Assembly: GCA_001513105.1 (NCBI GenBank)
Contig: LFSH01000001.1
Coordinates: 1-54,823, forward strand
Length of the DNA stretch: 54,823 nucleotides
From: Clostridiales bacterium DTU070
GTDB lineage: Bacteria; Bacillota; Clostridia; DSM-8532
Direction of reading: 5' to 3'
Shown here: piece by piece, positions 16,908 through 25,137 of the stretch
How positions within the stretch are numbered: the first letter of the stretch is position 1
How the letters are laid out: every line of letters begins with the position of its first letter
The notes under the pieces: generated by a model
Told to the model about the DNA's origin: nothing
The model's input: the letters and a program-made list of their open reading frames with translations, nothing else
Databases searched by the model: none
Position numbers and translations under genes: made by a program

Positions 16908-17651
16908 ATGAATAAGACAGACATCCATGGTGTCAGGATTCATAATGTTACAATGAACGAGGCCGTTCAGCTAATACAGGGCTGGATAGAAGAGGATGAC
17001 TCTGTTCCAAGGGCTGTATATACACCTAACTCGGAAATAATAATGCAGGCCCAGAGGAACGTGGAATTCAAAAACATATTGAATACTGCCGACCTTTTAG
17101 TTCCCGACGGAGCAGGGGTTGTACTTGCTTCACGCATATTGAAAACACCCCTGAAGGAAAAGGTTTCGGGAATTGACCTTGTTAAGAACCTGTTCCGGGT
17201 GTTTTCGGGGAAAAACGTAAGTTTCTATATATTGGGCGGCCAGCCCGGCGTGGCTGAAATGGCTGCCGTGAACATAATTGCCGAATATAAGAAAATTAAA
17301 ATAGCAGGGTATGATCATGGATATTTCAAACCCGACGAAGAAGATGCGGTAATAGAGAGAATAAACAGCGCCGAACCTGATATCGTGCTTGTAGGCATGG
17401 GTGCTCCGAAACAGGAATTATGGATTAACAGTAACAGGTACCGTATCAAATGTAAAGTATTAATCGGCGTCGGCGGAAGCATAGATGTGTTCGCCGGCAG
17501 GGTGACGCTTACTCCCGAATTTATAAGAAAAGCAGGCTTTGAATGGCTGCACAGGCTTATCCGTGAACCAAGAAGAATCAAGCGAATGGTGGATCTTCCG
17601 CGGTTTATGATATTAACATGGAAAAAGAGACTTTTCAGGAAAGTGAGATAA
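16908..17651 (+). CDS. WecG/TagA/CpsF-family N-acetyl-mannosaminyl (or hexosaminyl) transferase
   Basis: 247 residues. Family members transfer a sugar such as ManNAc from UDP onto undecaprenyl-PP-GlcNAc at the inner membrane face, starting a wall teichoic acid or other secondary polymer. Seen: PNSEIIMQAQRN, LVPDGAGVVLASRILKTPL, the active-site region VSGIDLVKNL, FYILGGQPGVAEMA, and VGMGAPKQELWI. GGAGG lies 8 bases before the ATG at 16908, so the in-frame ATG at 16893 is not used. No other teichoic-acid genes are nearby. The next gene starts 2 bases after the stop, so they are cotranscribed. Confidence 0.9.
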   Translation: MNKTDIHGVRIHNVTMNEAVQLIQGWIEEDDSVPRAVYTPNSEIIMQAQRNVEFKNILNTADLLVPDGAGVVLASRILKTPLKEKVSGIDLVKNLFRVFSGKNVSFYILGGQPGVAEMAAVNIIAEYKKIKIAGYDHGYFKPDEEDAVIERINSAEPDIVLVGMGAPKQELWINSNRYRIKCKVLIGVGGSIDVFAGRVTLTPEFIRKAGFEWLHRLIREPRRIKRMVDLPRFMILTWKKRLFRKVR

Positions 17652-17653
17652 TA

Positions 17654-18784
17654 ATGCCGGGTAATATTTCAAAAAGGGATGGTATTGACAAAAAAAGGAT
17701 AATTGTTTTGTTTATTATATCAGCAGTGTTATTTTTACTGTCCCGTGCCGCAAAACTGGCAGGTTTATATTACCCCGACCTGGTTGAAAAGCATTTCTCA
17801 AGGGGTATTTATCCAGTTACATCCAGGTTCCAGACATCCGTTGCGAATATTTTCCCTTTTTCCCTTTACGAACTGGTCATTATAGCCCTTGTTGCATACG
17901 GAATATACAGGATAATAAGGCTTATCCGTTCGTTCATCAAAAAGGAGTTTACCCGGGAAATACTGAATTTCCTTGCAGTTCTTGTTTTTCTTGTCTCCAC
18001 AGGTGTTTTCCTTTTCCAGTTCCTGTGGAGTCTTAATAACTACCGCCTGCCCCTGAAGGATCAATTAGGGCTTGATGTAAAGGAATCATCGATAGAAGAC
18101 CTGGCCGCGACATATAAAGCGATAGTATTACGGGCAAATGATATACGAAGTGTATTGCAGTATGACCAGGATACCGGCACGGACAGGGCGAAAGTTAGAA
18201 ACGTTCTTGAAACAGCGTGGGAAGGCTATTCCGCCCTTGCGGAGGAATTTGATCTGTTTCATGCAAACAGGGTTCGGGTTAAAGGGCTCCTGTTTTCACG
18301 GATACAAACAATATCCGGGTACACGGGAGTATACAGCTTTATAACTGGAGAGCCGAACATTAACATTGAGCCACCGCTGATTACTCTGCCCCACACAGCA
18401 TGCCACGAAATTGCCCACCAGATGGGTGTTACCTTTGAAGACGAAGCGAATTATGCTGCCTTTCTGGCCTGCAAAAATCATCCCGATATATTGTTCCAGT
18501 ACTCCGGATATCTTTCGGCTTTAACATATGTCGGAAATGCATTGTACAGCCAGTCTCCGGAGCTGTACAGCGAGATTTCAAATCTTATAAGCGAAGATAT
18601 AAAAAGGGATCAGGCTGAAATAAGGGCATTCTGGAACAGGCGCCTTAAGGAAACGGCTTCAAAAATAGCCGACAAGGTAAATGAAACCTACCTTAAAAGC
18701 AATAATCAGCCTTCCGGTATGCAAAGCTACGGCAAGTTTGTGGACCTTCTTATTGCCCATTACCTTCAGAACAATTCAATATAG
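17654..18784 (+). CDS. DUF3810-type membrane protein with zinc-metallopeptidase motif
   Basis: 376 residues from the ATG at 17654, 2 bases after the preceding stop and behind a GGAAAGTGAG stretch; an upstream in-frame ATG at 17618 has no ribosome-binding site. Three hydrophobic segments lie in the first 135 residues, then a large domain with CHEIAHQMG followed by EDEANYAAFLAC. That is an HExxH zinc site with a downstream Glu, as in gluzincin-type peptidases. The pattern fits DUF3810, whose substrate is unknown. Coupling to a TagA-like transferase suggests, without proving, a role in envelope maturation. Confidence 0.75.
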   Translation: MPGNISKRDGIDKKRIIVLFIISAVLFLLSRAAKLAGLYYPDLVEKHFSRGIYPVTSRFQTSVANIFPFSLYELVIIALVAYGIYRIIRLIRSFIKKEFTREILNFLAVLVFLVSTGVFLFQFLWSLNNYRLPLKDQLGLDVKESSIEDLAATYKAIVLRANDIRSVLQYDQDTGTDRAKVRNVLETAWEGYSALAEEFDLFHANRVRVKGLLFSRIQTISGYTGVYSFITGEPNINIEPPLITLPHTACHEIAHQMGVTFEDEANYAAFLACKNHPDILFQYSGYLSALTYVGNALYSQSPELYSEISNLISEDIKRDQAEIRAFWNRRLKETASKIADKVNETYLKSNNQPSGMQSYGKFVDLLIAHYLQNNSI

Positions 18785-18789
18785 CAGGA

Positions 18790-18863
18790 GATATCGAGCA
18801 ATGTAAGGAAACTTTCAGCGGAATGAAAACACAGCAACTGTTTCCGGGCATTGGCACAATATC
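18790..18863. repeat. Palindromic repeat element A (74 bases)
   Basis: Ends are GATATCGAGC and GCACAATATC, imperfect inverted copies, each followed inward by an AATG/CATT match. The right flank ATATCTTTATCC nearly repeats that of element B. It could fold into one hairpin. Confidence 0.65.
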
Positions 18864-18879
18864 TTTATCCAAGTGTTTG

Positions 18880-19087
18880 AAGATATCGTGCAATGCGAAG
18901 AAGCTTTTAGCGAAGTGCAGCTTAGAGATGTGCGGTCAGAGCGAGGACCAGCAAGCCAACTGTTTGAGCAAAAATGCTTCATACTATATTCTTTCAAAAG
19001 TATTTTTGCGAGTTTTGGCTTGCCCGAGCTGAACCGCACAGCTCTTGCAAACGTAGCGACTGCTTCTGAGCATTCGCACGATATCTT
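18880..19087. repeat. Palindromic repeat element B (208 bases)
   Basis: A perfect 12-base terminal inverted repeat (AAGATATCGTGC, 18880-18891; copy at 19076-19087) bounds two arms of about 95 bases that match each other imperfectly in inverted orientation. Shared blocks are GTGCGGT, GCAAGCCAA and GCAAAAAT. The centre is a short AT-rich loop. It has no transposase frame and resembles a small non-autonomous inverted-repeat element or a long structured RNA hairpin. Confidence 0.75.
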
Positions 19088-19129: not shown

Positions 19130-20968
19130 TCATTGCTGCAACGTATCAACAAGGTGCACTGTAAGAATATAAACACAATCCATTGTGACAGGAGATTCGG
19201 GCTTTATCCTCTGCATAATTTCGACAGGTACCAGGCCCTTTTCCTTTACAGTCTCATATGCATACCCGGTCTCGTACGGAATATCAAGGGTCTTCAGTAT
19301 AATTTCACAGGCTGTTTCCCCCGTGAGCAAATCATCGGTGGAATAAGGCCTGATTCGGTTGTCCAGCCTGAGAGAATATTTATCGGGTACCTTTTTAACA
19401 ATCAAATTTACGATTAACGTAACAAGGTTTTCCTGGTATGCTTCCATATCAAAAAGATAATCATTTTCCATGCCGCCCGCAACAAGGCCGTACTTTAGAA
19501 GTTCCTTTACTGCAGGCCATGCCCAGTGGCCTTCGTTTGGATTTTTTTCATCAAAATCCATAAGAGTTATACCCGACCTTCTCAGAAGTTTCTGCCAGTC
19601 CCTGATAACATTTTCATCGGCCTGGCTCAATTCCGCCGGGGTCATGTTATTAAGATAACAATACGCCGCAGTGACTCCCAAAGCTTGTCCGCCTGTAATG
19701 TTTACAGCCATTCTTCCTGCGCTTGTTGACGCCAGCGATGAAAAGGACGCTTTCTTTCCTGCCATCAACAGGTTGTCATAATTTTTTGAAATGTAGCATT
19801 CAAGGGGAATACTGTAAACAACGGGTTTTCCAAGTATGTATGAGTATTCCTCGGATATTTCTGCACTTATAAACTTCTCGGCATTGACCGGCCCGGATGC
19901 CATTATTACCTTGGTGGGGAAATTCCTGTTCTTGAGGATATCTTCAACGGATAAAGTATACCGGCCTTCGAAATGCCTGTATTCCGGGATATAAAAACTT
20001 GACGGGCCGGTTTTGAACACACAGTTTTCAAAAGGAACAAATGCAGTTTTCAAAAATGCAGTCAGCATTTTTGCCTCGGTCAGGGCATTGCTGAAATCTT
20101 CCGCGAACGTTGCACCGTTACCGACATTTACCTGGTGCACGCGTATGCCGCTTATGACAACCTCATCACCGGGCTGACCTATAAAGCTTATGTTTGAAAT
20201 TTTTGTTTTGCTGCTGACTTTCTGGTACTGACTCAGAACAAGCTGAAACTCGTACATGTTCTGACTGTGCTTCGAGATGCTCTGAATATCATCCCATGAA
20301 ACATTGGAAATAACGAAGTTAAACATTACCGGCATGTACGCATTCGGAACGTTTATATCTTCAGAGCCGAGGAAATACGGAACACCGCATAGCGACAAAA
20401 TATCCCCGTTTTCCGTGGCATCTATGAAATAAGGGGATTCTATCGTTTTTGTCTGTCCGTCGTGATGAACCGAAACAGATTTCACAATGTTTCTGTCGGT
20501 TTCAACAGATAAGTAATCGGCGTTATAAAAAACCGTAATATTGGGTTCTTCATCGAGCATATGTCTGACAGAACCGGTGTAATCCCTGTAGGAGAAATTT
20601 CCGCCCGTATCCCCGAACAACTCGGTATATATTCCTGTGTTCAGGTTTGTTTTTTCCTTGTTCAGAACCGCATAATCAGGTGAAGTGTATGAAATAAGTG
20701 CAGATTTTATGTAACTTCCGGGATCCGGGTCGCTGGTTAACAGTAACGTTTTAAGCCCCATTCTTGCTCCTGCGAGGGCTGCAGCAACTCCTTCAGGCTC
20801 ACTGCCGAAAACAACCAGCCCGAACTGGTTCTCACCTTCCGGCTGGTTTTCCCGCAGATACTTATCTTCAAACTCCCGCCCTGTAATTATCGGGAGAATC
20901 CCAAACCAGAATGTTAAAAAAAACAAAACGGCAACTATTAAATTCCTGATTATACGATTTTTATCCAT
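19130..20968 (-). CDS. Membrane-anchored FAD-dependent oxidoreductase with SLH-like C-terminus
   Basis: 612 residues from the ATG at 20968; TTG and GTG codons up to 18 bases upstream are possible and no start has a strong ribosome-binding site. Basic residues 1-8 and a hydrophobic helix (about 9-29) suggest an anchor with the body outside. A dinucleotide fold follows (LVVFGSEPEGVAAALAGARMG, about 51-71), where the GxxxxG form resembles the PF12831-type FAD oxidoreductases, then FIDATENGD and NLLMAGKKASFSSLASTSAGRM. Residues about 479-612 resemble two degenerate S-layer homology repeats (EGHWAWPAVKELLKYGLVAG; YETVKEKGLVPVEIMQ). Substrate unknown. It is 43 bases downstream of an exported coiled-coil gene and likely cotranscribed. 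Confidence 0.75.
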   Translation of the reverse strand: MDKNRIIRNLIVAVLFFLTFWFGILPIITGREFEDKYLRENQPEGENQFGLVVFGSEPEGVAAALAGARMGLKTLLLTSDPDPGSYIKSALISYTSPDYAVLNKEKTNLNTGIYTELFGDTGGNFSYRDYTGSVRHMLDEEPNITVFYNADYLSVETDRNIVKSVSVHHDGQTKTIESPYFIDATENGDILSLCGVPYFLGSEDINVPNAYMPVMFNFVISNVSWDDIQSISKHSQNMYEFQLVLSQYQKVSSKTKISNISFIGQPGDEVVISGIRVHQVNVGNGATFAEDFSNALTEAKMLTAFLKTAFVPFENCVFKTGPSSFYIPEYRHFEGRYTLSVEDILKNRNFPTKVIMASGPVNAEKFISAEISEEYSYILGKPVVYSIPLECYISKNYDNLLMAGKKASFSSLASTSAGRMAVNITGGQALGVTAAYCYLNNMTPAELSQADENVIRDWQKLLRRSGITLMDFDEKNPNEGHWAWPAVKELLKYGLVAGGMENDYLFDMEAYQENLVTLIVNLIVKKVPDKYSLRLDNRIRPYSTDDLLTGETACEIILKTLDIPYETGYAYETVKEKGLVPVEIMQRIKPESPVTMDCVYILTVHLVDTLQQ

Positions 20969-21011
20969 AGCAAACTGCACCAACAATTAATGCGCAAAGT
21001 CAGATTATATC

Positions 21012-23592: not shown

Positions 23593-25137
23593 TCAATTCT
23601 GCACCAGGTTCCCGACCACCAAGGGTATTGCACTGCAAATCTCGCCCGCCGTGTAACCTGCCTGGCCGTTGCTTCTTTCTGCCAGTACTTCACCGCATTT
23701 GCCATGAATGAATACGCCTAAACACGAAGCCATTGCCGCAGGTACACGCTGCCCCAGAAGGGAACCTATTATACCTGACAGTACATCGCCCGAGCCTGCA
23801 ACTGCGAGGCAGTGGTGGCCGGAGGTGTTGATATAGTATTTCCCGTCGGGGCACGCTGTTACCGTTCCGGCTCCCTTCAGCACAACGACTGCATTGGTGT
23901 TTATGCTGAATTCAACCGCCTTTTGGATCCTGTTTTTCTGTACTTCTTCGGTTGTTAAGCCGCAAAGCCTTGCAAACTCGCCGGGATGCGGCGTAAGTAC
24001 CGTGGAAAGTTTTCGTTCCCGGAGAACCTGCAGGTTCAGCACATTCAGTGCATCAGCGTCAATTACCAGGGGAACCGGGCACTTTGCAACAAAGCCGTTT
24101 ACAAGCCTTTCCACCTGGGGATCTGTCGATAACCCCGGCCCGATAACCACGGCATTCATGGCTTTTGATTTATCAAGAAGAAAATCGGTTTCTTTGTCCG
24201 ATATTATCCCGTTTTCATCTTTCAGCGGAAATACTATTGCTTCGGGAACAGTGGTCCCGTATATTGCTGCAAGGGATTCGGGAACTGCAAGATACACAAG
24301 CCCGGTTCCCGTTTTGAATGCGGATAATGCGGCAAGCATCCCTGCTCCCGTCATTCCCTTTGAACCGGTAATAACCATCACCTTTCCAAATGTTCCCTTA
24401 TGCCCGTCTTCAGGCCTTTCGGGAAGATACCGGCGCATAAGTTCTGCATCTGCCAGTTCACCCATAAGTTTTACATTTTCCGTCGCTTCAGCCGGGATAC
24501 CGATGTCCGCAATTACAATATCGCCTGAATATTCCCTTCCGGGATACTGGTACAGCCCCGGCTTCGGGAGCGAAAACGTAACCGTTTTTTCGGCCTTTAC
24601 CGCAACGCCGCATATCTGACCCGTATCCCCGTTTATTCCCGACGGAATATCTATTGAAAGAACCCTTCTCCCGCTTTCATTTACAGCGGTTATCACTTCT
24701 TTATAAAATCCTTTTATCTCCCCATGAATCCCGGTTCCGAAAATGCCGTCGATGATAAGATCCGAACTTTTTATCACCGCACTGATTTCTTCAACCGAAC
24801 GGGAATCCGTGCAGTACCTTACACCGGCATCAAGATTTTCAAGGATATCAAGAAATACTTTTGCATCACCGGACACATTATCCCTTTCAGCAAGAGATAT
24901 TATTTCCACGCTGAACATCCGCATCAGGTGCCTTGCGGCAGCAAAGGCATCCCCTCCGTTATTTCCCTTTCCGGCTATTACGGCAATCCTTTTCGAAGTC
25001 TCCCCGTCAAGCATTCCTGTTGCCGCCTTTACAACATTAAGAGCGGCATTTTCCATAAGAATAATCCCGGGAATCTTATACCTGTTTATTGAAATCCAGT
25101 CTATTTCCTTCATTTGGCCAGGTGAAGCAAGTTTCAT
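23593..25137 (-). CDS. nnrD: Bifunctional NAD(P)H-hydrate epimerase / ADP-dependent dehydratase
   Basis: 514 residues, a fusion of two repair enzymes for damaged NAD(P)H. The N-terminal epimerase domain (about 1-215) has AGKGNNGGDAFAAARHL, DGIFGTG and SIDIPSGINGDTG. The C-terminal ribokinase-like dehydratase domain (about 225-505) has VVIGPGLST, LTPHPGEFARL and the nucleotide-binding VAGSGDVLSGIIGSLLGQ. The fused form is common in bacteria. Upstream of alr in the same direction. Confidence 0.95.
   Translation of the reverse strand: MKLASPGQMKEIDWISINRYKIPGIILMENAALNVVKAATGMLDGETSKRIAVIAGKGNNGGDAFAAARHLMRMFSVEIISLAERDNVSGDAKVFLDILENLDAGVRYCTDSRSVEEISAVIKSSDLIIDGIFGTGIHGEIKGFYKEVITAVNESGRRVLSIDIPSGINGDTGQICGVAVKAEKTVTFSLPKPGLYQYPGREYSGDIVIADIGIPAEATENVKLMGELADAELMRRYLPERPEDGHKGTFGKVMVITGSKGMTGAGMLAALSAFKTGTGLVYLAVPESLAAIYGTTVPEAIVFPLKDENGIISDKETDFLLDKSKAMNAVVIGPGLSTDPQVERLVNGFVAKCPVPLVIDADALNVLNLQVLRERKLSTVLTPHPGEFARLCGLTTEEVQKNRIQKAVEFSINTNAVVVLKGAGTVTACPDGKYYINTSGHHCLAVAGSGDVLSGIIGSLLGQRVPAAMASCLGVFIHGKCGEVLAERSNGQAGYTAGEICSAIPLVVGNLVQN

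Follow-up and report, generated by a model that had tools for sequence, protein, structure and literature searches.

Many bacterial genomes are full of palindromic repeats, and outside the REPs linked to RAYT genes, the spread of these repeats is mostly unexplained. Bacterial MITEs, including NEMIS/Correia, RUP, RU-1/ERIC and bcr1, are multicopy intergenic elements of 100–200 bp with terminal inverted repeats. The element described in this study shares with them its size class, its terminal inverted repeats, its multiple copies, its lack of an ORF and its intergenic placement; it differs from them in that no cognate insertion sequence was found for it and in that its arms are variable and its centre is conserved. 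Integron attC sites fold from a single strand into imperfect hairpins in which certain unpaired bases are conserved and the terminal structure is variable, and they follow each other in head-to-tail order. Our element is likened to them by resemblance alone, and, unlike attC sites, its units are not separated by gene cassettes.

BIMEs, REP elements and REPINs (PMC3733652; PMC3116915) are dispersed, non-coding, intergenic palindromic units that form inverted pairs and mosaic tandem arrays and retain a conserved hairpin, and all of these properties recur in the element described here. However, REP elements measure 20–40 bp, whereas the present units measure 74–208 bp; REP elements carry an unpaired GTAG/CGTC tag at the foot of the hairpin, whereas the ends observed here (GAGATATCG, GAACTATTG and AGATATTG) lack the tag; and in RAYT-dependent REPINs a RAYT (Y1_Tnp) gene is flanked by the repeat, whereas the host genome of this study has no Y1/RAYT gene. 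Two further differences from BIMEs and REPs are an orientation tied to replication and a core common to several families. According to Di Nocera et al. (PMC3733652), REPs are found mainly at unidirectional and convergent gene pairs; in contrast, the arrays of the host element occupy more divergent than convergent sites (10 vs. 3), in addition to co-directional pairs.

The insertion sequences of the IS200/IS605 group (IS608, ISDra2; PMC6006769) have single-stranded DNA hairpins in common with our element, and their insertion orientation is linked to replication, which would account for an orientation bias. IS608-type elements also provide a precedent for the targeting of the lagging-strand template (PMC6006769). 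The host shows an orientation tied to the fork in 39 of its 42 arrays; elsewhere, the tie is weak or absent. In contrast to this group, the element has neither a TnpA (Y1) nor a TnpB-like gene of its own, and no gene of the Y1 type was found in the host. The intrastrand-triplex repeats (PMC4666352) are likewise multicopy, intergenic, structure-forming DNA, but they are polypurine triplexes, whereas our element consists of duplex hairpins with bulges; that study describes its E. coli motif as free of strand bias. In the open-access literature, no published description of the family was found by its tip sequence, by the translation of the tip (SERSEF) or under clostridial palindromic repeats, and the repeat is apparently undescribed so far.

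Results

The locus lies in a window of 54,823 nt, which is the whole stretch of DNA analysed (contig LFSH01000001.1, positions 1 to 54,823, of Clostridiales bacterium DTU070, the host). An original prediction made from this window alone had described two palindromic elements, A and B, with common ends, filling the gap between two convergent genes. Both elements are present, and the genes on either side of the gap encode a DUF3810 protein and an FAD-dependent oxidoreductase. The features of the locus are as follows.

17618..18784, + strand: flanking gene, DUF3810 protein, with its stop codon 5 bp ahead of A
18790..18863, + strand: element A, a short unit with the ends GATATCGAGC...GCACAATATC, in which both outer arms of B are joined and most of the core is missing
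18864..18879, no strand: TTTATCCAAGTGTTTG, the spacer that separates A from B and has ends (TTTA.CC ... AAGTGTTTG) found again between the units of further arrays
18880..19087, + strand: element B, a full-length palindromic unit, AAGATATCGTGC...GCACGATATCTT, profile match 1–204
18880..18891, + strand: left arm of the perfect terminal inverted repeat of B, AAGATATCGTGC, from the repeat search
18909..19058, + strand: conserved family core in B, common to other genera and families (covariance model R1, match 1–150, 169.9 bits, E 1.8e-37)
18930..18936, + strand: left side of the covarying helix GTGCGGT/ACCGCAC (A1 columns 64–70 pairing with 174–180; both-side changes in 6 of 7 pairs)
18959..18969, + strand: 5′ side of the tip loop, ACTGTTTGAGC, near-invariant in A1 and the same as the tip of the remote homologs
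18970..19007, + strand: terminal hairpin extension, AAAAATGC...GTATTTTT, replacing the GNA triloop of the remote homologs
19008..19015, + strand: 3′ side of the tip loop, GCGAGTTT; the two sides are bridged by GNA in the remote homologs and by a longer hairpin here
19033..19039, + strand: right side of the covarying helix, from the A1 alignment
19076..19087, − strand: right arm of the perfect terminal inverted repeat of B, GCACGATATCTT, from the repeat search
19130..20986, − strand: flanking convergent gene, FAD-dependent oxidoreductase

The 12-base terminal inverted repeat of B is perfect, as had been predicted. The common ends of A and B exist as well, with the corrections that GATATCG of B begins at 18882 and that the downstream motif reads TTTATCC in A and TTTACC in B. 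In the profile alignment of element A, model positions 1–37 directly abut positions 165–204; by sequence comparison, its 3′ half matches B at 78%, and a 44-bp direct repeat (80% identical) found in the repeat search links this half with that of B. The suggestion that A is an internally deleted copy of B is therefore right in form, although the opposite derivation, in which B is A plus the core, is also possible. The folding energy of the 321-nt stretch comprising A and B is −116 kcal/mol, compared with −84 ± 5.5 kcal/mol in dinucleotide shuffles (z = −5.9), and none of the 100 shuffles folded as well. Elsewhere in the window, an imperfect 31-nt inverted repeat (71%) with 219 nt separating its arms occurs at 24050–24330.

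The host genome was searched as a draft assembly of 2.89 Mb in 107 contigs (99.95% complete). A BLAST search with the B unit gave 109 matches, of which about 20 exceed 200 bp at 85–91% identity, and a chance origin of A and B is excluded because the unit recurs this often in the genome. The profile search of the array regions resolved 42 arrays or loci containing 90 non-overlapping pieces, 35 of them full-length, with at most four full units per array. These arrays sit in gaps between genes, their units are often in tandem and head-to-tail, and the spacers between units have the conserved ends TTTACC ... CAAGTGTTTG. The arrays have eroded ends, frequently at the base of the core hairpin (near model position 145–173 on the left and 35–70 on the right). 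The arrays are mosaics of arms, core and arms, that is, intergenic alternations of palindromic units as in BIMEs.

Among 61 genomes, the unit is present in seven, which represent four genera and all belong to the family of the host (7 of 32 genomes of that family); two of the three host congeners examined, G001 and G003, are without it. The predicted family of repeats is thus borne out by both the host genome and its relatives. At the site orthologous to the window locus, G001 has no element and G002 has only a degraded remnant. The gap downstream of clpX contains elements in G000, G002 and G013, that of the host in the opposite orientation, and the simplest reading of this site is turnover or repeated insertion at the same gaps. 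Between genera, the core is approximately 80% identical, and the outer arms are wholly different (GATATCGTGCAATG, GAACTATTGTACAATA and AGATATTGTGCAATA) yet still complementary; within f115, the arms also differ completely between copies, and the core is retained. A and B are units of an interspersed, non-coding palindromic DNA repeat that is dispersed, intergenic and patchily distributed.

The original prediction turned on whether further copies exist and whether they keep the pairing of the arms, and both were found to be the case. In the 55-pair hairpin aligned over 57 full copies, 91.5% of the pairs are standard and 183 cells are changed on both sides, whereas controls in which the 3′ partners were slid gave only 15–46 such cells. 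The compensatory changes far outnumber those of the slid controls; therefore, the arm pairing is maintained, either by structural selection or by the copying of one arm onto the other. The mismatch cells of the family alignment comprise 68 G:T and 74 A:C, and this near equality is as expected for DNA. When the arms are aligned with each other, G:T and A:C number 16 and 29 in the host and 31 and 7 in f115/f183, and the wobble data of the host speak for DNA, whereas those of f115 speak for RNA. In 28 of 34 host copies, the + strand folds better as DNA, with a mean difference of approximately 2 kcal/mol of 43.

A covariance model of the core was run against 391 Clostridia genomes and matched in three other Clostridia families (best E values 5e-16, 2e-6 and 1e-4). 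These remote homologs share the left loop (TTAGAGAT.. ..GAGGA.AAG) and the right loop (CCCG.AG.GAGTT...CTCTTAG), and their tip is short, ACTGTTTGAGCGNAGCGAGTTT, in place of the longer hairpin that separates GAGC from GCGAG in the host family. As an exact pattern, this tip is found in 7 of 398 Bacillota genomes at up to 35 copies per genome, whereas the reversed control never occurs; the pattern is also found in two viral contigs and in the Ilyobacter polytropus plasmid pILYOP01 (Fusobacteriota). In these places, other Bacillota families and the Ilyobacter plasmid among them, the tip ACTGTYTGAGCGNAGCGAGTTT sits within palindromes. It contains GCGNAGC, and A, C, G and T all occur as N in the remote homologs. 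The sequence GCGNAGC is the GNA mini-hairpin, which is reported to be extraordinarily stable as DNA whatever the identity of N (PMC4686876; PMC6479982). Homology extends past the tip in the Clostridia hits and may do so in f115/f183 and Ilyobacter. The copies of pILYOP01 (L191–L198) are flanked by palindromes of the type GTTACTTTTC...GAAAAGTAAC, which are reminiscent of intrastrand-triplex repeats.

The GC skew in the 20 kb around each array was used as a proxy for the direction of replication in the draft assembly. The 39 host arrays mentioned above are oriented against the regional skew, with their + strand on the C-rich strand (two-sided p = 6e-9). This rule is followed by 9 of the 10 arrays at divergent sites and by all three at convergent sites, the window array among them (together 12/13, p = 0.003). 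Between co-directional genes of the host, the element has its + strand antisense in 21 of 22 cases (20 of 21 in another count). Because 12 of the 13 divergent and convergent sites obey the skew, the orientation tracks the fork rather than neighbouring transcription, and the latter was rejected as the cause of the bias. The composition of the element was also rejected as a cause, since its slightly G-rich + strand lies on the C-rich strand and the result is the same with the arrays masked. The C-rich strand is the leading-strand template, and it carries the strand of the element that folds more stably as DNA.

In other genomes, the proportion of arrays following the bias is 7/8 in G668, 5/6 in G007, 2/2 in G488, 7/12 in G432, 7/14 in G008 and 0/2 in G017. 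The host shows a strong orientation bias, several other genomes a weak one or none; hence, the bias is not universal. This link to replication is a new fact, beyond what the earlier reader could see, and it suggests a folded single strand at the replication fork as the form in which the element is spread or maintained. At L254 and L259 (G432) and L263 (G668), pairs of elements approximately 300–450 bp apart are opposed, one with the GC skew and one against it.

A search of the host genome for an enzyme gave no match to PF01797 (Y1) and none to PF00078 (reverse transcriptase, RVT_1), which in a draft of this completeness is good but imperfect evidence. When all ORFs close to some 150 loci were clustered, no transposase recurred near the copies; only the repeats and orthologous housekeeping neighbours recur. 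The element is also absent from the fetched flanks of the Y1 genes of G002, G008, G111, G397, G488 and others. RAYT-like Y1 proteins of about 250–265 aa are encoded in several Clostridia/Bacillota genomes, at L294 (G002), L295 (G008), L303, L305 and L311 (G111), L298 (G397) and L302 (G488). The inverted array pair at L049 was considered as a composite transposon and rejected, as it encloses acyl-ACP thioesterase and cupin genes. The repeat as a coding sequence was likewise rejected, with no Pfam or NCBIfam family assigned to it.

Discussion

According to our leading but still tentative reading, A and B may well be units of a non-coding, non-autonomous DNA repeat of the REPIN/BIME type that acts as folded single-stranded DNA. 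The orientation bias, the equal mismatch classes of the family alignment and the DNA mini-hairpin at the tip of the remote homologs together fit an action of folded single-stranded DNA at the fork. One strand of the element would be exposed by the fork and would fold into a long hairpin whose internal loops are conserved and whose tip is stable. A putative enzyme of the host or of a mobile element may then recognise the hairpin and copy or move the element, and insertions would thereby be fixed in orientation relative to the fork. Unequal recombination or slippage could lengthen or shorten the arrays and would yield A as a core-deleted unit. Furthermore, conversion among copies would hold the copies of a genome alike, both terminal arms included. 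A function for the host would not be required. Against the action of folded single-stranded DNA stand the enzyme that was not found in the host genome, the lack of a clear target-site duplication, the bias that is not general, and the excess of G:T in f115/f183. Moreover, the bias could stem from selection acting against one orientation instead of from insertion.

The original prediction had also offered a structured RNA family, and an RNA gene or element multiplied in the genome, the hairpin of which functions as RNA through its conserved internal loops, is unlikely but has several observations on its side. The covariation is real, the unpaired columns are strongly conserved, and f115/f183 show the G:T preference expected of this reading; in addition, the tip loop TGA-GC...GC-GAG could, from its sequence, form tandem sheared G.A pairs resembling a kink-turn. 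However, the wobble counts of the host and of the family alignment do not favour the same strand, and the strand that G:T would favour is the one lying antisense at 21 of the 22 co-directional host pairs. The arrays have no constant relation to a transcript and occur at divergent and co-directional pairs alike. Rfam (release 15, 4227 models) also gave no match, either for the window at the gathering threshold or for the element and its remote homologs at relaxed thresholds, where only chance-level hits appeared.

The label "MITE-like" given to the elements suits the terminal inverted repeats, the lack of an ORF and the multiple copies. In the strict sense, it would have the repeat arise by deletion from a DDE-transposase insertion sequence that has the same terminal inverted repeats and inserts as double-stranded DNA with target-site duplications, and we consider this origin quite unlikely. 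Intergenic dispersal and patchy occurrence agree with it, as do possible direct repeats seen by eye around two remote homologs (TTAAAATAA at L150 and ACTATAG at L152). However, the proposed check for a transposase with the same ends came out negative, and an ORF-bearing relative with these ends was seen neither in the host genome nor in the fetched loci of relatives. No clear target-site duplication was read, the host array ends being eroded and the intergenic DNA of the congeners too diverged for alignment. A MITE should keep its terminal inverted repeats best, whereas the arms of this repeat vary completely, between genera and within f115, as the core stays; an orientation linked to replication is also unexpected for a MITE.

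A further reading explains the bias by host selection: the repeat would encode direction on the chromosome in the manner of Chi or KOPS, would be used by a protein associated with the fork, and would have its orientation kept by selection. The agreement of the arrays with GC skew, even at sites where gene direction is uninformative, and the sequence conservation across genera are in keeping with such a signal. Nevertheless, we regard it as improbable, given that the repeat is missing from two of the three examined congeners and from most genomes of the family, that the bias is weak or absent in several relatives, and that approximately 42 loci of long, variable arrays differ from the short, dense motifs of known polar signals. 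There is equally little to be expected from counter-selection, by which insertion would occur both ways and the orientation with the stabler hairpin on the lagging-strand template would be deleted or harmful, leaving the bias as a by-product, for although the stabler + strand does lie on the leading-strand template, the mean folding difference is small and an equal difference in G008 accompanies no bias.

Returning to the folded single-stranded DNA repeat, the host genome, in which no Y1 transposase or reverse transcriptase is detectable, presents a repeat that reads out the direction of replication. If the orientation reflects insertion, a novel enzyme working on hairpins at forks is predicted; if it instead results from selection, the arrays serve as a natural readout of strand-specific hairpin toxicity. 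It is conceivable, though rather doubtful, that hairpin elements sharing the tip ACTGTYTGAGCGNAGCGAGTTT form a superfamily that extends over several families of Bacillota and one or more Fusobacteriota plasmids, and that folded single strands of these elements are moved at the replication fork by an enzyme of a type other than the Y1 transposases and reverse transcriptases. In this superfamily, the tip is an ultra-stable DNA mini-hairpin next to an asymmetric loop, and its conservation provides a simple search handle for a survey.

Several copies in relatives have a more elaborate architecture. In DTU069 (G008) and its congeners (L097, L102, L104 and other loci of G008, G013 and G017), a second long palindrome (CGCGGGTCCTGGCTCGGGTGTTTCG...GGGCGACAAAGC / GTCGCCCGTCGTCACCGAAA.CACCCGAGCCACCCGC) surrounds the core unit and alternates with it, which yields nested mosaics of several hundred bp. 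The copies of G006 (L037, L042 and L048) carry an extra insertion of approximately 70 nt, which includes two small hairpins and separates GGCTTG from the right-arm segment GAGCTGAAC. At L092 (G017), a tandem repeat of half a terminal arm (CTTATGAGATATTGTGCAATTTAAGCAATATGGGGTATTCTG) occupies positions 1–140 immediately ahead of a full unit.
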